Assembly: GCA_027923505.1 (NCBI GenBank)
Contig: BROI01000018.1
Coordinates: 496,001-560,000, forward strand
Reading direction: 5' to 3'
Length of the DNA: 64,000 nt
Source: Mayamaea pseudoterrestris
Lineage: Eukaryota; Bacillariophyta; Bacillariophyceae; Sellaphorales; Sellaphoraceae
Numbering within the stretch: the first letter of the stretch is position 1; every line of letters begins with the position of its first letter. Positions 51,217 to 61,173 of this stretch are shown piece after piece. The translations under genes and the position numbers were made by a program. The notes beneath the pieces are model-generated. The model was not told the DNA's origin. It searched no databases and saw only the letters and a program-made list of their open reading frames with translations.

Positions 51217-52006
51217 GGATCAACGCCAATGGAGCTTTGAAACGAGGCCGAGTGCACCCCGCAACTTTGTTCGGACGAGTCGGCATGCTAGTGAAAACTA
51301 CGTCAACAGGCAATAGTATAAAACGAGTGCCAGTGTCAATTACGTCACAAGACAATAGTACGAAACGAGTGCCAGTGAAAACTGCGTCATACGGCAATAG
51401 TATGAAACGAGTGCCAGTGAAAACTGCGTCATGAGGCCATTGTAAGAAACGAGTGCCAGTGAAAACTGCGTCATCCAGAAACGTTGTGAAACAAGTGCCA
51501 GTGTCAATTACGTCATAAGGCAATAACGTGAAACGAGTGCCAGTGTCAATTACGTCATCAAGGCATTAGTACGAAACAAGTGCCTGTGTCAATTACGTCA
51601 TTAGGCAATTGTATGAAACGACTGCCAGTGTCAATTACGTCATCGAGGCACTATTATGAAACGGGTGCCAGTGAAAACTGTGTCAGCATGGCATAAGTAG
51701 CATTGAACGAGTGCCAACGACCATGGCGCAGCGGTGCAAACAAAACGGAGTCTTTAGCATTGCTTTAAGACACTTTTGTCGTCAGATTATTTACTCTCGA
51801 GATTGAGTCGACTGAGTGGCCGCCCTTTTATCTTTGCGTCCGCCTCATACTAGCAAAAGCGACGAGCAATTAACAGTAAAGCCGGATCGCTCGACGAGAG
51901 GAACAATCACTAGCTCGTGGTCTGGTGGGCCCAAGTCAAGGCAGCGTCCAAAAGTAACAAGCAATACAATACGATTACGCGAAAAGGCTACAGCAAGTCA
52001 TTTACT
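51217..52006. promoter_or_regulatory. Divergent promoter interval containing minisatellite array
   Basis: About 790 bp between the ARMT1-type gene and the multi-module membrane-protein gene. The central 400 bp is repeat array D. The remaining 290 bp before the plus-strand gene holds no other feature I can name. Confidence 0.5.
51309..51719 (+). repeat. 42-bp minisatellite array D (9 units plus partials)
   Basis: Unit starts are at 51309, 51351, 51393, 51435, 51477, 51519, 51562, 51604 and 51647, with a decayed copy from 51690 and a partial at 51288. Two unit subtypes alternate irregularly: one ends GTGTCAATTACGTCA, the other GTGAAAACTGCGTCA. Subtype mixing suggests unequal exchange between units. 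Same orientation as arrays A and B. Confidence 0.95.
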
Positions 52007-54991
52007 ATGCAGCAATCAATTGTCCAGGAGGCAGATGGACTGTTGAGGGAGGTGACGAGTAACGACTCTTCTGCTTCCCTGTCGTCCATCATTCTTATGC
52101 CACTTGCCCAGGGAACAACTTCCAGTATATCGTCGCAGCAGCAACAAAATCGAAACAAGATTTCAAAAAAGCGACGAAGAATTATTATTCCAGCCTTTTC
52201 CATCAGTGAAACGAGTGCATCCTCCCATCATGGAGACGTACCCAGCGAAAAGGATGCACATTTTCACTCCAATACAGCAGGAGCTGCAGAATGGCAACAT
52301 GACGACAATGAAAGACCCGACTTGTCCGGTTTTTCGCAACTTCTTTCTGCTCTACTTTTGACGACTGGATTGGCGCTACTATCAGCCCTTGACGCCAAGG
52401 AGCAGTGTCTACAGCACGAAACGAACGCCTTGCTGGATTTGGTGGACGACGACAACTTTCAACAAGCTTACGAGCAAGCATCAAGTGGTAGTACCAACTG
52501 CATTGCTATGTTTCGAAACATTGCTTCCACGGGAAGCATTACCTTTGGTGTTGGCGTGTTTGCATTATCCTTGCTGCGTTGCTGCAATCGTAAACGATAT
52601 ACGAGCAGTCTGCAAAGTATCTTGCGATTGACAATGACGCTTCTCTTGCTTGCGAGTGGAATACTTGCTGCGCAAACCTACAATATTATGGCAGTCATGC
52701 TCATGCCGAGACGGGACGATGTATATGCTACTACAGTGGATGCTGCTGCTGATGATGATGCGATGCAAAACGGTGCGGTCGATGACGAATTTAGCGGTGC
52801 AAGCGACTACATTGTCAACAATAATCCATACCAGTCGCTTGCAGCAGTTGATCGCTATGGGCATGTTGGAGTCAATGCCAACCTTTACTACCTTTCATGG
52901 CTTACGCAGGGACTAGCGCTTGCTTTGGTTTATCAACTCTTCACCGCTGCGGTTCGGTTAATCCGAGCGACGAGAGTCCAAGAGAATCATGCGGCGAATG
53001 GTGCAGCACCACTCATTCATAACGAGACGGCTCGGCAGTCTACGTCACAGCAAGATCTTCTTCCGACTGCCTCATGGACCGATCACTATTATACCTACTC
53101 GCCTCAGAATGCTATGCGACAGCGTCGACGGGCACACTGGTTTCAAAATTTGTACAAGCTGCGCGCTCGCGCTGGCTTTTGGGTTGCTGCGCTCTTCTCA
53201 TGCCTAGTGTTGGTAGCTGCCTCGCTGGCCACTTGGAACCAAGTCATCTGGCCGTACACAAAGGAGAGTCCATCGTCCTGGCAATCCACTAAATATCTGC
53301 ACGTGTGCCAACACTTTGCCGACAATGTTAGCGCCATGCAGAATGACGATGTAGACAGCGCTACCAACAAAAGCTACATGGCTAGCAGCACGGTTCCACT
53401 TTGTCGACGCACCGTGGGGGCGTGGTTGAGTGGAGTCATTGCGACGGCTCTTTGCGCGACTGCTATTGCCATGCACTTGGCGGCCCGGCAGTCGGCGTTG
53501 ACACGGCACCTTTCTATTCTTCACCTCGGTTTCTCACCAACATGGGCAAGCCACGCAAGTAACACCGACGGATTGGTACGTGATCCAACTAGTTCACCGA
53601 GTGGCATACATCATCATGGCGGATCGTCGTGGGAACAGATAATGATTCAGAACAAGATTCCACTACAGACGGAACTGGTTCTGAGCTTTTTGCTGAGCTG
53701 CGTTTTGGGGTTCAACGCCGTCTTTGCGACGGGGGTGCAAGGGCCCGCAGCAACTGTTGGCAATCTCTACTATGCTAGCTGGATCTCGTTTCTGCTCTGT
53801 CTACGCATTTGTTTGGGATGTCTGGAAGAGTACCACGATATCCACGACGATGAGAAGGTGGATGAACTCGTTGACGCCAAAATTAATGCTCATGGCTCCC
53901 GTAGTAACGAACGCGGAGAGGACGTGACTAATGAACTGACTGCCATTGAACAACAGAGGCAGCCATCAGCAGGATATCAGCCGCCGCACATGACAGCTAC
54001 TTCTGCCGACGAATTACAAGTCACCGCGAGTTGCGCCACGGCACAGACCGATCAATCCGTGACGGATCCACACGAGAAAGATCGGTCCAAACGTCTTCGG
54101 GGCTATTTTTTCCTCTGGGTCTTTTCAGCCGTTTGCGCTTGCTCAGCTTACGATGCGGCCGTCAATCATCAAGAGAAAATAACAACCATTCAACACTACA
54201 TGATAATATCCCCTCTCGTTGTTACGGCTGTTTCAGCATGCCTCTTTGGCCTCTGTCTATCGAAGCGATGCTATCAAGTTTTGTCAAGCTTTTGGATTGG
54301 CGGAATTCTGTCAATCATTTGTTTCGCATTCTGGTTCGTTGATCTCGTGTTGACTATGCACTCTGACGATTCGTGGGCTGTTAATGGCATTGGCGAGATT
54401 GAGGACGCCAATTTATACTACTACTCCTGGGCCTCGATAATCACGGCTGGTATTCAAATGATGTACTACATAAAAGCTTACTTTGGAATCCGCTATCAAG
54501 ACAATATGATTCTTGTTTGGATGTCCATTTGCAAGGTTTGCTTTGTTATTTTGGGAGCCTCCATTCATATTTGGCTCACCATCTCTGCGAATTGTGAGTT
54601 TGACGAGATTGCGCTCGGAGCTGTAACCTACTGCTCGCGAACTGTCTTGTCCATGATCGTTGCCTTGACGGGCATGCTGGTTGGCGGACTCGTCGTTTTC
54701 GGCCGCTTGTGCGTCTATATCTGTTGCCGCTACCGATGTTCTCGCATTCAAGCTCACGTTGAGATGCTCATCTCCATGTTCCTGGTTCTACTCTTTGGTG
54801 CAGCTGTTGCTTTGATAACCGGCATTGGCGGTCCTGGACAAACGGTTGGGGATTTGTATTATTCTACCTGGATCGCGTTTTGGGTGTCACTTGGCATTTT
54901 TGTAACCTGCTATAATCAACTTCAAGAAGAGGAGCACGGCGAGGAGGAGAAGGAGCAACGTCACTACGAAGTGTTTACGTCAGACAAATAA
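52007..54991 (+). CDS. Large multi-pass membrane protein of four repeated four-helix modules
   Basis: This encodes 994 residues from the ATG at 52007. An N-terminal polar region of about 100 residues precedes four modules, each of about four membrane helices. The last helix of each module carries a recurring motif: NLYYLSWLTQG, TVGNLYYASWISF, DANLYYYSWASI and TVGDLYYSTWIAF. The consensus is (N/D)LYYxxW. The modules therefore arose by internal duplication. Loops between modules 1 and 2 and between modules 2 and 3 are polar and variable. I do not know the family name. A transporter, channel or membrane-shaping role is possible but nothing catalytic is visible. Topology suggests about 16 helices. 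Promoter side: array D. Confidence 0.75.
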   Translation: MQQSIVQEADGLLREVTSNDSSASLSSIILMPLAQGTTSSISSQQQQNRNKISKKRRRIIIPAFSISETSASSHHGDVPSEKDAHFHSNTAGAAEWQHDDNERPDLSGFSQLLSALLLTTGLALLSALDAKEQCLQHETNALLDLVDDDNFQQAYEQASSGSTNCIAMFRNIASTGSITFGVGVFALSLLRCCNRKRYTSSLQSILRLTMTLLLLASGILAAQTYNIMAVMLMPRRDDVYATTVDAAADDDAMQNGAVDDEFSGASDYIVNNNPYQSLAAVDRYGHVGVNANLYYLSWLTQGLALALVYQLFTAAVRLIRATRVQENHAANGAAPLIHNETARQSTSQQDLLPTASWTDHYYTYSPQNAMRQRRRAHWFQNLYKLRARAGFWVAALFSCLVLVAASLATWNQVIWPYTKESPSSWQSTKYLHVCQHFADNVSAMQNDDVDSATNKSYMASSTVPLCRRTVGAWLSGVIATALCATAIAMHLAARQSALTRHLSILHLGFSPTWASHASNTDGLVRDPTSSPSGIHHHGGSSWEQIMIQNKIPLQTELVLSFLLSCVLGFNAVFATGVQGPAATVGNLYYASWISFLLCLRICLGCLEEYHDIHDDEKVDELVDAKINAHGSRSNERGEDVTNELTAIEQQRQPSAGYQPPHMTATSADELQVTASCATAQTDQSVTDPHEKDRSKRLRGYFFLWVFSAVCACSAYDAAVNHQEKITTIQHYMIISPLVVTAVSACLFGLCLSKRCYQVLSSFWIGGILSIICFAFWFVDLVLTMHSDDSWAVNGIGEIEDANLYYYSWASIITAGIQMMYYIKAYFGIRYQDNMILVWMSICKVCFVILGASIHIWLTISANCEFDEIALGAVTYCSRTVLSMIVALTGMLVGGLVVFGRLCVYICCRYRCSRIQAHVEMLISMFLVLLFGAAVALITGIGGPGQTVGDLYYSTWIAFWVSLGIFVTCYNQLQEEEHGEEEKEQRHYEVFTSDK

Positions 54992-55145: not shown

Positions 55146-58100
55146 TTAGTCGTCTACTTTAGCTGCCTTCTTTTTCTTGCTTGCTGGAGTCGCTGGCTTT
55201 TTCAACGTTGCCTTTCCATTGCTTCCAGCCTTGCATTTCCCTTGACTGGAGCGTTCCGCTTCGATTGATTTTGCGATGCCATACGTGTCCTCGCCCCCAC
55301 TATGTGCCTTGTTGCTATTGTCACCATTAATGTCCACTAGCTTTCCCCATCGACGAAGTTTCCCTTCCTTGACTCTGAGCTCGACCGGGCCATGAGCAAA
55401 AATACATTTCCTCTTTATGCGCATGGGACATGCTGTTCCATAGCTGACTGACCAATGGTTACAAAGTCGAGTTCGAAAGCGTGGATCCTCCGAACATCGA
55501 ATTAAGTCCTTATTGTCTCGGCGACGAATTGAAGAATCCACCACACGACGCTCCCATTCCTCGTCAGAGCGGCTCCAGCCGCGGCAATGAAAATTCTTGG
55601 CAGCGCTGCTAGCTTCCCATATGATTATCTCGCCAGCGTCGGGTAATGTGTCATTCTGCTGTATGCCAGGAAGCGGTGTAGGCGTTGACCGCTTTTGTAT
55701 CATCGGTGCTAGCAGCCTTGCAGGATCATCTACTGCCAACTCATCCATCAGCAAAAGATCCAATGTATTACATTCTGTTCTATCCAATTCGTCTGCCACC
55801 TTCAAATTAGACGACGAGGGAACCTCTTCAGGGAGTGACAGCATTTCGTCATGATGAACATCCTTATCAATTTGCTCCGTGATGGTCGTTATTTGCTTCT
55901 CGATACGCATATCCAATACACCTGCTTGAAGTGGTACTATAGTGTACCTTTCGCACAACTGGTCGTCTTTAGGTAGATAGCTCCGACAAACGTTGTAGCA
56001 ATGGATGAGCAAACCAGGAAACCGCAGTTCAAAGTATTTCAAAAGGCCAGTAGCAGAATTATTCATCGTCGATTTAAGTTCGCTTGGTAGTTCATCAAAG
56101 TGATGGCTTTTATTTCTAACGAGACGTAGCAAGTCCCTGACCGACGACGGATCATATGTGCGAAATCGCACCACGTTATTGACGAGCATCGCGTCAAGCT
56201 CCGTGTCCCATGAAAGACCAACCACCTCCGATGCCTTCCTCTCGACTAAGAGCGTCAAGGCGGATATCCTATCGTCAACCGCGATAGCGTCGCTTTCAAT
56301 CCGATCTGAAAAATCACACAAGAAACTCAGTCGTCGCTCATCGTACCAAAAGAAAGGGTGGTCGCAGACTTGCGTTGCAGTGGGACGACATCGTGGATTT
56401 CTTTGTATCATGCTTTGTACCAAATCATACGCATCAGCCGATATTCCTTTTAAGGCGGCGATGTCAGGACGATTGTACATTATGTTTGCTTCCCTTTCCC
56501 ACCATTCACCAAATGCATGCGCAGTCGGCACGATTGTAGAGTAGAAAATGCATCCCAAAGAGAATATATCGACCGATCTGCTTGTCCTCGCACAGCCTGC
56601 TGCTTCGACAGGTGAAACAGAGTCTCCAGTTTGCGAGTCCGTCGGCATTGCACTGCTCTCTTCCGATCGCGCGCTGGCATCTGACGGTGATCGCATACTC
56701 ATAACCTCAGGAGCTTGCCAACCGACACTACCAGGACCAATCCCACCAATCGAAGATTGTGCACCATTAGATTGGCCGCGAATTGAATCAACCAATATAC
56801 TTGCACCAAAGCTGCTCTGTCCCATCAATTGCTTGCCTAGCCCCATGTCGGAAATCTTGGCCACATACTCGTGGTGCTGAAAGACTTGCAAAACATCGCC
56901 GCTATGACTTTTAGGGCCCTTTGCGGCAGCCAGTAAAATGTTGGCTGGTTTCAAGTCTCGGTGAACAATCCGGAGGCTATGCAAATGCTTCACGCCGTTT
57001 GCAATTTGCGACAAGATAAACTTGGTAGACTCGAGAGTAGGGGTCGCACGTATATTATCCTTGTCGATGTTAATGTGATGCGCTCCCAACACTAAAATAA
57101 GGTCATGCAATGAAAGATCGCACAGTTCAAGAGCGAGATAAACAAAATCGCCCCGTACTTCCTTCAAGAAATATCGTACAACATTAGCATGCCCATCAGA
57201 TTCAATAAGCAGCGATATTTCACGATCCGCGCTTGCATGATAAGCCCGAAGCATCCGCTTGACAGCCACAAGGCGCCCTTCCAGCGAGCCTTTGTAGACA
57301 ACAGTTCCGTGTCCACCGTACCCTAGTATAGAATCGTCAAAGACCTTTATCAGCCCAACATGTGTCGCTTGGTCCACTGACAGACCTTGGCGTTCCATCT
57401 CTTTGGCCGCTCGTTGCCGCTTCCGTCGGCCCAATTCAAAAGACACGACAAAAATCATAGCAATAAATGGAGGCAGCCATGAGCCCAACAATCGAAGCAT
57501 TCGACGGTACCGTCGTCGCTCATGACTGCGCCGCTCATCGTAGTGCGGAAGCGTAAAGTAATGCTCCGGAAAATCCACGTAACCGCGATAAACATCAACG
57601 ACCCCATTGTCGCCATTCATATCCACAAGAAATGAGTGGTCCGCATTATCGTAGATATCAGAAACATCTGACTTTCCGACGCATGCTGGAAAGTTAACGC
57701 CTCCTGGGCGACAACGTTTCCGTCGAGGTAAATGATGCTCATATGAATAATGCGGCGCTCGCTGGATGCGATTCGGATGACTTCCAACACCGGATATAAT
57801 GTTAAAATTTCTTTTGGCAGCGGTAATTGGGTTTTGCGAATGATAACTGCCGCTTCCATGCGGCTGACCTCCAAGACTCATTGCATATAGCTGGCCATTT
57901 GGCATGGCACCGACAATTGACTGCTCATCCCCATCTGTTTCAGCGTAGACTGTGCCATCTATCAAGCCTTGCATTTGCCGCTCCATCTCACGCTTCAAAT
58001 AATCGGCCGAACCATCTGGTAGTATAGCATCTGGCACCATTTTGACTTGCAAGGATGCTCCAGTCTCTGCGTCAATCGCAAAGGTGACTGCGGCCGCGAA

Positions 58101-59231
58101 TAACTTACGCGCGGCAACCCATTTTATCGACCCGAACGACACGTTCGCTAACGCAACGTTTCCACTTGGTGTTGTAAGTATGATGGCCGATTCGTGAATT
58201 GCTGATTGTTGTTGTGGCGTATAATGTGTTGAAACGTCTTGGCTAATGACTGTGTCAGCATCGGCTGCCGTACCAGTCGATGCTTTGCTTTCTCCACCAC
58301 GTCCAAGCATCATATCATTCATACCCATTATTCGAGCCGTCGAAACCTGCGCATCCAATGTCCCAGACCGTGGTTTGTACAAAGTTACTGTCTCATCCAC
58401 TCGGCCAAGCCAGACAAATTGACTGGCTTTTTCTTGTGCTGCAGATTCGTCACCAATCGCCTCTCCCGGAACATCCATCGGAACAGAATCAGGACCAAAT
58501 CCTTTGGTGTGCTCAAAAGCGACTGGCAAATCTTCGTATACTGGAATGTCAGTTACTCGATAGGCCTCACCAGGGCGCGCTTGCCGCAAGTCGTCGTTTC
58601 CGTCACCATCAGCTGCCACTGGTTCCACTTGTACTATGTTGCCATTTGACGCATCCAACAAAAAGGCATTCGCCTTGCTACTCGCCGTATAAAGGCGCCC
58701 TCGAGCATCGACAAAGGGCGCTCGAGAACACAAGTCGCTCATGGTGGTGGTCACTGTAACGTCCTGGGCCGTTAGCGATACGCGACGTCCATCCGTCCAT
58801 GGAACGGCCAGAGTATAATCAAGAGCTGCGTTTGCTTCGTGTTGTAATGCAGAGGATCGAGTGGTTGTTGTTGTGGAGAGTAGTGGAGAAAGAATAGAGG
58901 ATGCATGTTGCTGATCCCTTGGCTTCGTATCGTGCGCACCATTTTGCGGCGTGAAAAAGTCAAACGAAGCTTCTTGCTTCCAAAGCAAATCACCCGTATT
59001 TATGTCAAGACCCGTCAAGCTTCCATCAATGCCAGCGACTATTAAGACGCTTGATCGTTGGGGTGGCGATGCATTTGGCTTAGTAGATTGATCCAAAGCT
59101 GATTCCATAATCGCGGCTGACAGCGAAAATGAAAGCTGGAAAAGCAGCAAGCAAAGCAGTATATGTGATAGAAATTTTCGCTTTATTTTCCAATTACAGA
59201 GGATTTGAAAAGCTTTGGAGTAGAGCTTCAT
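55146..59231 (-). CDS. IRE1: IRE1 kinase/endoribonuclease with C-terminal CCCH zinc finger
   Basis: This encodes 1361 residues in one exon. Signal peptide about 1-40; luminal domain with PQQ-like strand (DGSLTGLDINTGDLLW) to about 575; membrane helix about 582-602. The kinase runs from about 627: GYGGHGTVVYKG, Lys 658 in VAVKRML, HRDLKPANILL (Asp 759) and ISDMGLGKQL (Asp 795). A Ser-rich insert follows. The KEN RNase domain (about 964-1085) has YDPSSVRDLL and VRNKSHHF, keeping the Tyr, Arg-Asn and His of the active site. IRE1 senses unfolded protein in the ER and cuts RNA, chiefly a bZIP mRNA. After a Glu-rich spacer, about 1250-1280 reads RLCNHWSVSYGTACPMRIKR followed by KCIFAHG. This gives C-x10-C-x7-C-x3-H, then ELRVKEGKLRRWG. 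Known IRE1 proteins normally end at KEN. A basic Lys-rich end follows. Confidence 0.93.
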   Translation of the reverse strand: MKLYSKAFQILCNWKIKRKFLSHILLCLLLFQLSFSLSAAIMESALDQSTKPNASPPQRSSVLIVAGIDGSLTGLDINTGDLLWKQEASFDFFTPQNGAHDTKPRDQQHASSILSPLLSTTTTTRSSALQHEANAALDYTLAVPWTDGRRVSLTAQDVTVTTTMSDLCSRAPFVDARGRLYTASSKANAFLLDASNGNIVQVEPVAADGDGNDDLRQARPGEAYRVTDIPVYEDLPVAFEHTKGFGPDSVPMDVPGEAIGDESAAQEKASQFVWLGRVDETVTLYKPRSGTLDAQVSTARIMGMNDMMLGRGGESKASTGTAADADTVISQDVSTHYTPQQQSAIHESAIILTTPSGNVALANVSFGSIKWVAARKLFAAAVTFAIDAETGASLQVKMVPDAILPDGSADYLKREMERQMQGLIDGTVYAETDGDEQSIVGAMPNGQLYAMSLGGQPHGSGSYHSQNPITAAKRNFNIISGVGSHPNRIQRAPHYSYEHHLPRRKRCRPGGVNFPACVGKSDVSDIYDNADHSFLVDMNGDNGVVDVYRGYVDFPEHYFTLPHYDERRSHERRRYRRMLRLLGSWLPPFIAMIFVVSFELGRRKRQRAAKEMERQGLSVDQATHVGLIKVFDDSILGYGGHGTVVYKGSLEGRLVAVKRMLRAYHASADREISLLIESDGHANVVRYFLKEVRGDFVYLALELCDLSLHDLILVLGAHHINIDKDNIRATPTLESTKFILSQIANGVKHLHSLRIVHRDLKPANILLAAAKGPKSHSGDVLQVFQHHEYVAKISDMGLGKQLMGQSSFGASILVDSIRGQSNGAQSSIGGIGPGSVGWQAPEVMSMRSPSDASARSEESSAMPTDSQTGDSVSPVEAAGCARTSRSVDIFSLGCIFYSTIVPTAHAFGEWWEREANIMYNRPDIAALKGISADAYDLVQSMIQRNPRCRPTATQVCDHPFFWYDERRLSFLCDFSDRIESDAIAVDDRISALTLLVERKASEVVGLSWDTELDAMLVNNVVRFRTYDPSSVRDLLRLVRNKSHHFDELPSELKSTMNNSATGLLKYFELRFPGLLIHCYNVCRSYLPKDDQLCERYTIVPLQAGVLDMRIEKQITTITEQIDKDVHHDEMLSLPEEVPSSSNLKVADELDRTECNTLDLLLMDELAVDDPARLLAPMIQKRSTPTPLPGIQQNDTLPDAGEIIIWEASSAAKNFHCRGWSRSDEEWERRVVDSSIRRRDNKDLIRCSEDPRFRTRLCNHWSVSYGTACPMRIKRKCIFAHGPVELRVKEGKLRRWGKLVDINGDNSNKAHSGGEDTYGIAKSIEAERSSQGKCKAGSNGKATLKKPATPASKKKKAAKVDD

Positions 59232-59769: not shown

Positions 59770-61173
59770 TTAAATACGAGAGCCACTAAACACAACGGGA
59801 TGCACCAACCGAAATAGCCAGACTGCCGCAAATATATACGTGACAGAAGCCGCCAAAAGCACTCCAAGGGTTGACATAAGCGTTGCGTTGACAACGTAGC
59901 ATGAGACGCATCCCGACTTGATCAAGCCATTGCCAAACTTTGGCACTTGGGAAATTGCAAAGATGGTACTGACGGCAAATACTTCAGCGCTACTCCATGC
60001 AAAGGAAACTTCGGTCCAGAACAAGAGTCGTTCCAGCTGTCGCCGCGTGAGTGGCGCATGTAAAAGGACGCAGCAAAGTATCATGCAAACGAGTGGAAAG
60101 ACCACGCCAAGGAAAAACCAAACAATGGCAAGCCAAGTCATGCGACCAAAAGTTCCATCTTCTGAGCTTGTTGGTAGTTCGGCTCCGAGTTTGACAATCG
60201 AATAGTATTCTGCCTCGCGTTCAACGGAACCCTGCAGACTGCTGACTTGGTAGACGTAAAGAGTTATACCAGCTATAAACATTGCGATTGATGCCAGCAG
60301 TAAAAAAGAGATGGTGACCACTGAGCAGTTTTTGAGCTTTCCAAGTCGCTTTACTCCAAGTTTTGCTCTTGTACTCGCCGCAACTGCAGCATTGTCATTC
60401 ATCGCCTCCTCCTCCGGACCACAGTCAACTATGGGTCGATAGATAATTGATCGATGCCTATACAAGACTCGCTGCGTCCACACCAAGCTCAACATTGTCG
60501 CACAAACAAAGCCAAAAATTCCATATCGCGGCAACACATAAACCTCAACGCTTGGTCCGCCCAAGTCAATGGACGACCGGAAGACGACAGCAATCTCCAA
60601 AAAGACGACAATATCGACAAAGCTCCACTTGCCTAAAGCGTCTAGCCAAACTAGGAGCCGTTCGCGTCGCAGTGGTTTCTTATGAAAGGGCATGATCCAC
60701 GCGTACAATGTCAGTAGCATTTTAATGTAGGGCCATGATATGCTTGTCAACACGACCAACACCACTAGTGCATAACTTCCCGTATCCCAAAGACTTTTGA
60801 CGGACGTAAAGACAGAGGCAGTCAAGATGACTTGTGTTTGAACATTGAACAATACATCGTCAACTGGAACCAGTTGGCGAATGACCGAAACGCCACTGCC
60901 AATGTCGGAGACGAGCAGTAAAATCATGGTTAACGTCAAAGCAGCTGGCAAGCCAAAGCGCTCAAATGCCGATATGTTTGAATTTCGAAAATGGCTTGGA
61001 CATGCTGATTGATTTTGTTGTTGAGAATGAAATGAGAGCTCGCTTGTTGCAGCCTCGATTGCATCTGCGTCTTTATCTTTGGCGAAAGACGTCTCATATT
61101 CCTGCTCCTTGCCCATGCTGCTACTTTGTTCGACGTCATGGATCCCATTATTCTGTAGAAATGACCAAGACAT
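59770..61173 (-). CDS. Eukaryotic PqiA-type tandem membrane protein
   Basis: This encodes 467 residues. A polar N terminus of about 70 residues is followed by two PqiA modules, each with about four membrane helices. Module 1 has SISWPYIKMLLTLYAWIMP, then RRERLLVWLDALGKWSFVDI, the PqiA signature (LxxLGKWSxxDV). Module 2 has the parallel FPLVCMILCCVLLHAPLTRR, then RLLFWTEVSFAWSSAEVFAV, a diverged copy. PqiA belongs to bacterial systems that move lipid between membranes. Eukaryotic copies exist in several protist lines and their role is not known. The paired modules match the bacterial length. No partner MCE-domain protein is in the window. Confidence 0.75.
   Translation of the reverse strand: MSWSFLQNNGIHDVEQSSSMGKEQEYETSFAKDKDADAIEAATSELSFHSQQQNQSACPSHFRNSNISAFERFGLPAALTLTMILLLVSDIGSGVSVIRQLVPVDDVLFNVQTQVILTASVFTSVKSLWDTGSYALVVLVVLTSISWPYIKMLLTLYAWIMPFHKKPLRRERLLVWLDALGKWSFVDIVVFLEIAVVFRSSIDLGGPSVEVYVLPRYGIFGFVCATMLSLVWTQRVLYRHRSIIYRPIVDCGPEEEAMNDNAAVAASTRAKLGVKRLGKLKNCSVVTISFLLLASIAMFIAGITLYVYQVSSLQGSVEREAEYYSIVKLGAELPTSSEDGTFGRMTWLAIVWFFLGVVFPLVCMILCCVLLHAPLTRRQLERLLFWTEVSFAWSSAEVFAVSTIFAISQVPKFGNGLIKSGCVSCYVVNATLMSTLGVLLAASVTYIFAAVWLFRLVHPVVFSGSRI

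Follow-up and report, generated by a model that had tools for sequence, protein, structure and literature searches.

IRE1 of Mayamaea pseudoterrestris in a Single Reading Frame with a CCCH Finger

We analyzed a window of 64,000 nucleotides from the diatom Mayamaea pseudoterrestris (contig BROI01000018.1, positions 496,001 to 560,000; coordinates below are those of the window, and all features lie on the minus strand). A single unbroken open reading frame of 1361 codons (55146..59231), taken from the open reading frame listing with its translation, encodes IRE1. The initial annotation had described an uninterrupted frame running through the kinase and the KEN domain into a zinc finger, and this description holds: the CCCH finger and ELRVKEGKLRRWG are in frame with both domains of the 1361-amino-acid protein.

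The translation starts with an N-terminal leader that contains a hydrophobic stretch and is likely a signal peptide (residues 1-40; 59112..59231). It is followed by a region that we presume, by its position, to be the lumenal domain (residues ~41-575; 57507..59111) and by a presumed transmembrane span (residues ~581-600; 57432..57491), likewise read off the translation, after which comes the basic sequence GRRKRQR. The lumenal region has a weak match to PQQ_2 (E 0.013) that lies under the Pfam cut-off, and homologues keep on average a fraction of 0.28 of the query residues between positions 40 and 560. In its membrane topology, the Mayamaea protein would be an ER sensor with a cytosolic kinase and KEN domain.

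The Kinase and KEN RNase Domains

The kinase domain (residues ~626-966; 56334..57356) is recognized by Pfam (PF00069, E 2.3e-32, best stretch residues 634-819), by alignment with IRE1 chains and by the PDB matches of a predicted model, the top ones of which are IRE1 crystals. Directly behind it lies the KEN RNase domain (residues 967-1098; 55938..56333), which matches Ribonuc_2-5A (PF06479) at residues 967-1095 with an E value of 1.6e-33. This direct succession, seen both with Pfam and in the alignment with Ire1 chains, is that of IRE1. A genome search detected one KEN match, and this IRE1 is the sole one detected in the Mayamaea genome.

All active-site residues previously proposed (Tyr, Arg-Asn and His) were recovered: Y1026, R1039, N1040 and H1044 align with those positions of Ire1 chains that we take to be the catalytic Tyr, Arg, Asn and His, and they are the same in every one of the 121 sequences aligned, namely the query and the 120 homologues listed by our first search (the best 120 of 168). 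The position of H1044 is occupied by His in one Ire1 chain and by Asn in 3sdj, whose title designates it an RNase-inactive point mutant. One homologue (P0095) carries the source name 'Inactive ... IRE1-like', yet possesses all four KEN residues.

The IRE1 proteins of yeast, animals and plants normally end close to the KEN domain. The diatom protein shares with IRE1/Ire1p the order of kinase and KEN and the catalytic Tyr, Arg, Asn and His, but differs from it by an additional linker and a CCCH module of about 135 residues behind the KEN domain.

A Conserved Module behind the KEN Domain

The linker (residues 1099-1199; 55635..55937) is variable in the alignment of homologues and has low model confidence; the distance from residue 1098 to W1205 ranges from 40 to 234 residues, with a median of 105 (121 sequences). 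It leads into a conserved C-terminal module (residues 1200-1334; 55230..55634), a unit far larger than the finger that is common to the diatom homologues retrieved and is marked by the motifs CRGW.RS..EW, FRTRLCNHW, the finger itself, ELRVKEGK..RWG and GGEDTYG. The finger (residues 1257-1280; 55392..55463) has the typical CCCH make-up of three Cys residues and one His at short fixed spacings (C1257-x10-C1268-x7-C1276-x3-H1280); this C-x10-C-x7-C-x3-H spacing is exact in all 235 homologues retrieved, and its four ligands show no variation across 121 sequences (the query and the best 120 of 168 homologues). The finger is predicted to bind zinc. Mean pairwise identity among the 121 sequences falls from 0.82 in the finger region to 0.69 in the module as a whole and 0.54 in the KEN domain. 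The mean net charge is about +8 over residues 1249-1300 and +11 over residues 1211-1334, and the module is followed by a K/R-rich C-terminus (residues 1335-1361; 55149..55229), assigned by the composition of the homologue tails, in which K and R make up on average 31% (117 of the 121 tails, those with at least 15 residues).

The module has one match in the Mayamaea genome, its own; no second copy was detected at E values up to 10. We had considered whether a paralogue of the finger at another genomic site was its donor and rejected this on that result. Pattern matches to the module in viral contigs (28) and in prokaryotic contigs (24) yielded none that tblastn confirmed.

Distribution of the Module among Homologues

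The 235 homologues were retrieved by three protein searches, which contributed the best 120 of 168, 7, and the best 120 of 164 proteins, respectively. Two of these searches drew on the tail and favored tail-bearing proteins; hence, the presence of the tail among homologues may be overstated. The initial annotation had suggested looking for the same tail in related IRE1 proteins, and the module was matched in every one of the 235 homologues, retrieved mostly through the tail-using searches. The search that was blind to the tail and used only the KEN domain gave seven proteins including the query itself, six of which the first search had already given; all seven carry the tail.

KEN and the module were matched in one polypeptide in 229 of the 235 homologues, and in 229 of 229 the module stands behind KEN. 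Ten homologues that carry both come from transcriptome (MMETSP) records, and in none of the 235 does the module stand beside another recognized domain; we therefore favor the view that KEN and module are encoded by one gene. All six entries in which KEN was missed look like truncated gene calls. Three of them (P0143, P0155, P0182) start within the last residues of KEN, and in another scan P0155 did exceed the KEN threshold; the other three (P0139, P0152, P0159) start in unconserved sequence ahead of the module and probably represent truncated calls.

Among the 235 homologues retrieved (with the first search represented by its best 120 of 168 and the third by its best 120 of 164), those with an organism name are diatoms, with one exception. 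This protein (P0093) is labeled Alexandrium tamarense, which we take to be a dinoflagellate; we suspect contamination because, in a tree built from 118 sequences, it groups with a protein of Skeletonema. P0051, P0055 and P0057 were too short to be included in this tree. If the change in IRE1 is lineage-specific, as had been proposed, the lineage extends beyond one species: the named homologues retrieved are diatoms, this odd label aside.

Relationship of the Finger to RNA-Binding CCCH Proteins

In a sequence search of the PDB, the solved structures closest to the finger belong to CCCH proteins, among them tristetraprolin, TIS11d and Unkempt (E 0.003-0.15), and several of these fingers bind RNA; the matches are weak, the best having an E value of 0.0029. 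Among 19 family members searched against Pfam at E values up to 10, the most frequent match was zf-CCCH_UNK (PF25427; 14 of 19), with a best value of 0.00063 in one member. The Pfam matches are mostly insignificant, and the unrelated families TSP_1 (0.019) and Glyco_hydro_7 (0.02) outscore zf-CCCH (0.14). The Mayamaea module itself matched only PF25427 (E 0.22; 11.9 bits versus a cut-off of 31.1), and neither zf-CCCH (PF00642) nor a relative of it exceeded its cut-off there. A search of the genome with PF00642 returned 23 places, 18 of them over the cut-off, and the IRE1 finger was absent among these. The similarity to RNA-binding fingers appears weak, though consistent.

The finger shares with tristetraprolin/ZFP36/TIS11d the lead-in (FRTRLC here, YKTELC there) and the C-x-FAHG..ELR exit, and the PDB chain of Unkempt (PF25427) also has FAHGP..LR. 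Unlike Unkempt, the diatom protein has a single finger; tristetraprolin and its relatives have two. The diatom finger is also distinct in being fused to an endonuclease. Membership of the tristetraprolin (ZFP36) family rests on tandem C-x8-C-x5-C-x3-H fingers with YKTEL lead-ins, and the diatom finger, with its C-x10-C-x7-C-x3-H spacing, is only similar to these. One report describes the YKTEL lead-in of the ZFP36 family together with binding to UAUUUAU (PMC12710939). Since the diatom lead-in has Arg in place of the Glu of tristetraprolin-type fingers and the spacings are longer (10/7 versus 8/5), the RNA specificity of the finger could differ or be lost.

Structure predictions gave a mean pLDDT of 53.4 for the module, which is low confidence, and a fold search with this model (Foldseek, E up to 10) returned only four matches, all unrelated and with E values of 7.8 or higher, and none at 0.001. 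The kinase-KEN-tail model reached a mean pLDDT of 66.0, with the linker and the tail at low confidence and without reliable placement.

A Possible Docking Site for mRNA

The locus is best explained as an IRE1 that carries, beyond a long variable linker, a fused basic module whose single CCCH finger resembles those of tristetraprolin and Unkempt. On balance, we lean toward the module being a tethered docking site, at which mRNA would be selected or retained for the RNase; its RNA binding, docking role and substrates are inferred. In this scheme, the finger would bind single-stranded mRNA; unfolded protein would cause IRE1 to oligomerize and thereby bring several fingers together, and the clustered fingers would, through avidity, keep chosen mRNAs next to the RNase for cutting. 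In favor of docking we counted the finger region being more conserved than KEN, the basic character of the module and its CCCH likeness; against it we counted that both flanks of the finger are conserved beyond the need of a single RNA-reading finger, that the Pfam and PDB similarity is weak and that the tail models are of low confidence.

A precedent exists in yeast Ire1, which is reported to require an mRNA docking site outside the kinase and RNase; most of the role of this site can be taken over by an inserted U1A RNA-binding module (PMC4279078). The diatom module would share this docking step with the yeast [+]-box; the latter is a basic motif located between the membrane span and the kinase (PMC4279078), whereas the diatom has a finger module behind KEN. 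The synthetic Ire1-U1A resembles the diatom protein in that an added RNA-binding module provides docking, but it is man-made and sits in a kinase loop (PMC4279078), while the diatom module is natural and C-terminal.

The conservation that reaches well past the finger on both sides would also suit a contact site for proteins, in which the finger is structural and the flanks (CRGW.RS..EW, RWG.LVD, GGEDTYG) bind a partner, for instance the translocon, the ribosome or the RNA ligase. One possible partner exists, since the genome encodes a ligase of the RtcB type; set against the resemblance to RNA-binding fingers and the basic module, we regard such a role as rather doubtful. Still less probable is autoregulation, with the module folding back on KEN or the kinase and the finger gating the RNase according to its redox or zinc state. 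The long linker could let the module reach either domain and cysteines might sense redox, but C1216 and C1246 vary, being kept in only 110 and 97 of 121 sequences, respectively, and the predicted model, weak evidence in itself, does not place the tail reliably. That the finger belongs to a neighboring gene in frame with IRE1 by chance is highly improbable, for although the linker is variable and KEN was missed in 6 of 235 entries, the 229 joined proteins, ten of them from transcriptome records, and the entries that begin in the end of KEN or are probably truncated speak against it.

Significance and Candidate Substrates

Which RNAs IRE1 chooses, the few messages that are spliced or the many that are decayed, is a live question in the field. 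Because a type of finger that commonly binds RNA is present on the IRE1 of all relatives retrieved, our data suggest that diatoms may choose the RNAs cut by IRE1 in their own way. The docking module would be a natural, conserved example, from a major algal group, of IRE1 fused to a discrete domain of the RNA-binding type; its four finger ligands would offer a concrete handle on IRE1 substrate choice, and it bears on diatom stress signaling. Among the matches listed for the IRE1 and tristetraprolin literature, we found no report of a zinc finger on IRE1 or of the mechanism or a substrate of a diatom IRE1. In one paper, IRE1 appears only in a general scheme and one reference (PMC9902392); a study of tunicamycin in Phaeodactylum mentions neither IRE1 nor zinc finger (PMC9585838), and the passages of a further paper do not contain the words diatom, stramenopile, heterokont, protist or zinc finger (PMC4891664).

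More tentatively, diatom IRE1 could contain a tristetraprolin-like mRNA reader that becomes multi-fingered only upon oligomerization under ER stress and picks mRNAs by a short motif for cleavage, a sequence-addressed mRNA decay rather than, or besides, splicing of the HAC1/XBP1 type. We scanned 23 bZIP loci of about 3.1 kb on one strand, some of which overlap or adjoin and are therefore not independent, for strict seven-base CNGNNGN loops on stems of at least five. HAC1/XBP1-like twin hairpins were absent at these loci, a result that excludes little and lends no support to such a target either; they contained seven hairpins and no pairs, and 20 zf-CCCH loci taken as background (61,392 bases) contained no pairs and two hairpins.

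Domain Architecture of the IRE1 Protein

The minus-strand frame at 55146–59231 of the window runs through 1361 codons without interruption. Its translation begins with a leader containing a hydrophobic stretch. Next come a lumenal region and a membrane span (residues about 581–600), each presumed from the sequence, and then a kinase domain (PF00069; E 2.3e-32) followed by a KEN RNase domain (residues 967–1095; PF06479; E 1.6e-33). C-terminal to KEN, a linker leads to the finger C1257-x10-C1268-x7-C1276-x3-H1280. The initial annotation had placed an IRE1 kinase and KEN domain in one open frame, and behind KEN a C-x10-C-x7-C-x3-H finger followed by ELRVKEGKLRRWG; the Pfam matches and the translation of the window bear out both statements. 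Sequence comparison with solved structures puts Ire1 chains closest, with 3fbv (which we take to be the yeast protein) ranking first (E 5e-76) and other IRE1 entries next; an AlphaFold model of residues 600–1361 retrieved IRE1 crystals only among the 50 PDB matches listed.

In the alignment to the Ire1 chains, Y1026, R1039, N1040 and H1044 of the KEN domain line up with the positions that we presume to be catalytic, and 3sdj, an entry titled as an RNase-inactive point mutant, carries Asn where His aligns with H1044. The active-site Tyr, Arg-Asn and His reported initially are thus present, and these four residues, together with the four finger ligands, are invariant in all 121 sequences of an alignment comprising the window's protein and the best 120 of 168 homologues (see below). 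The Asp of the kinase HRD motif is found in 117 of the 121, the remaining four being short proteins at the alignment edge.

Directly after the membrane span lies a basic stretch, GRRKRQR (window 57411–57431, minus strand), which may serve as a topology signal or correspond to the [+]-box, the basic mRNA-docking motif of yeast Ire1. The pattern F..GRR occurs somewhere in the protein in 106 of 110 homologues of at least 1200 residues.

The Finger Module Is Shared by Related IRE1 Proteins

Three protein searches, combined into 235 cluster representatives, were used to trace the C-terminal module (residues 1200–1334). The first, with residues 990–1361 as the query, yielded 168 proteins within an E limit of 0.001, the best 120 of which were used; since this query contained the tail, it is biased toward homologues with well-conserved tails. 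The second used the KEN domain alone of Corethron hystrix, and is hence blind to the tail; it returned seven proteins (the query itself, five known from the first search and one new), and the tail was present in all seven, a fairer test of presence from a very small sample. The third, queried with a Cylindrotheca module over a range of shorter lengths and with an E limit of 10, gave 164 proteins, and 114 of the best 120 of these were new.

Among the matches listed, the exact C-x10-C-x7-C-x3-H spacing was found inside a module match in 235 of 235 homologues, so that the tail described initially recurs in related IRE1 proteins. KEN was matched as well in 229 of the 235, and in each of the 229 the module is C-terminal to it. 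Three of the other six (P0143, P0155, P0182) start at the very end of KEN, and P0155 passed the KEN threshold in a smaller sequence set; the other three (P0139, P0152, P0159) start in unconserved sequence N-terminal to the module. Precomputed Pfam domains of the homologues listed from the first and third searches were kinase, KEN, beta-propeller-type families or none, and no other kind of domain was found next to the module among these matches.

Residues 1200–1334 are strongly conserved in the 121-sequence alignment. Mean pairwise identity, as obtained with the tail-inclusive query, is 0.82 in the finger region (residues 1249–1300) and 0.69 over the module, compared with 0.67 for kinase residues 626–812 and 0.54 for KEN. 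The lowest conservation among the segments measured is seen in the linker before residue 1200 and in the last 16 residues; the distance between residue 1098 and W1205 ranges from 40 to 234 residues.

The Finger Resembles RNA-Binding Fingers

Searching the PDB with the single module sequence (E up to 10) gave four matches only: tristetraprolin (0.005), the C3H1 protein 9y10 (0.02), TIS11d (1.6) and Unkempt (3.1). A profile built from 19 modules recovered 9y10 (0.0029), tristetraprolin (0.0033) and the cytoplasmic zinc-finger protein 6nzl (0.0041), then TIS11d (0.073) and Unkempt (0.15), followed by two chance-like matches (0.64, 0.65). With E values up to 10 allowed, 14 of the 19 modules matched the Pfam Unkempt-like CCCH family (best 0.00063), the window's own module reaching only 0.22; zf-CCCH was matched by six of 19 (best 0.14), with two unrelated families scoring better.

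What the finger has in common with these matches is the lead-in before the first Cys and a C-x-FAHG..ELR arrangement around the last Cys and the His. It differs from the tristetraprolin family in its wider spacings, in an Arg at the lead-in Glu position and in being a single finger, and membership of that family was rejected on these grounds. Judged by sequence, it therefore resembles RNA-binding fingers yet stands outside the tristetraprolin family.

A Candidate RNA Docking Site

Yeast Ire1 is reported to require mRNA docking on a basic motif outside kinase and RNase, for which an inserted U1A RNA-binding module can largely substitute (PMC4279078). The diatom module, which is basic, carries a finger and is attached through a long linker, could be a natural counterpart in mRNA docking, and oligomerization would multiply weak single-finger contacts. 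We infer that the finger binds zinc, and we consider an RNA docking site the probable function. That the module instead contacts a protein or the ribosome seems to us rather unlikely, and a role in autoregulation improbable. The module model has a mean pLDDT of 53.4, peaking over the finger (block means 67–80), and a structure search with it found no fold match. In the model of residues 600–1361, confidence is good over most of kinase and KEN and poor in linker and tail; the predicted models do not confirm the finger fold, nor is the tail docked onto the enzyme in them. Among the open-access papers listed, none was presented as an account of an IRE1 zinc finger or of a diatom IRE1 mechanism.

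Spread, Age and Integrity of the Fusion

Organism names accompany a minority of the homologue records and, among the matches listed, denote diatoms in all but one: Amphora, Epithemia, Attheya, Cylindrotheca, Chaetoceros (including C. debilis), Nitzschia, Seminavis, Skeletonema, Thalassiosira, Bacillariaceae sp., Stauroneis constricta, Thalassionema frauenfeldii, Corethron hystrix and one Psemu1 label, presumably Pseudo-nitzschia multiseries. The exception, P0093, is labelled Alexandrium tamarense and clusters with Skeletonema IRE1 in a midpoint-rooted kinase-KEN tree of 118 sequences; it probably reflects diatom contamination, a transfer being the less likely alternative. In this tree the sister of the window's protein is P0001, 60% identical to it across the region searched, and the two fall among pennate relatives; on this basis we regard the window as diatom DNA. 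Corethron, which bears the tail, is generally regarded as an early-diverging diatom, a placement that rests outside this tree, so the fusion is probably older than living diatoms.

KEN and module lie in a single sequence in all ten homologues with MMETSP (transcriptome) identifiers among the best 120 of 168. Six genomic gene calls (P0224, P0226, P0230, P0233, P0234, P0235) follow the module as far as LVDK and then turn to unrelated sequence, a pattern suggestive of an unspliced intron whose position is common to these homologues; the window's gene lacks this break.

Genomic Setting

The genome (30.6 Mb, 41 contigs) contains one KEN match and one module match, with no second module copy at E up to 10. 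It lists 23 zf-CCCH places, the IRE1 finger not being among them; for repeats and large families, such counts are minimum values. An RtcB-type RNA ligase is encoded in two adjacent pieces.

A 1024-amino-acid frame with many hydrophobic stretches (window 51917–54991, plus strand) runs convergently toward the IRE1 gene; a Pfam search of it with an E limit of 1 gave no match. The next gene upstream of IRE1 (window 59770–61173, minus strand) is a membrane-protein-like frame matching PqiA (paraquat-inducible protein A; PF04403; E 1.4e-14), a family known chiefly from bacteria and here encoded in a diatom genome.
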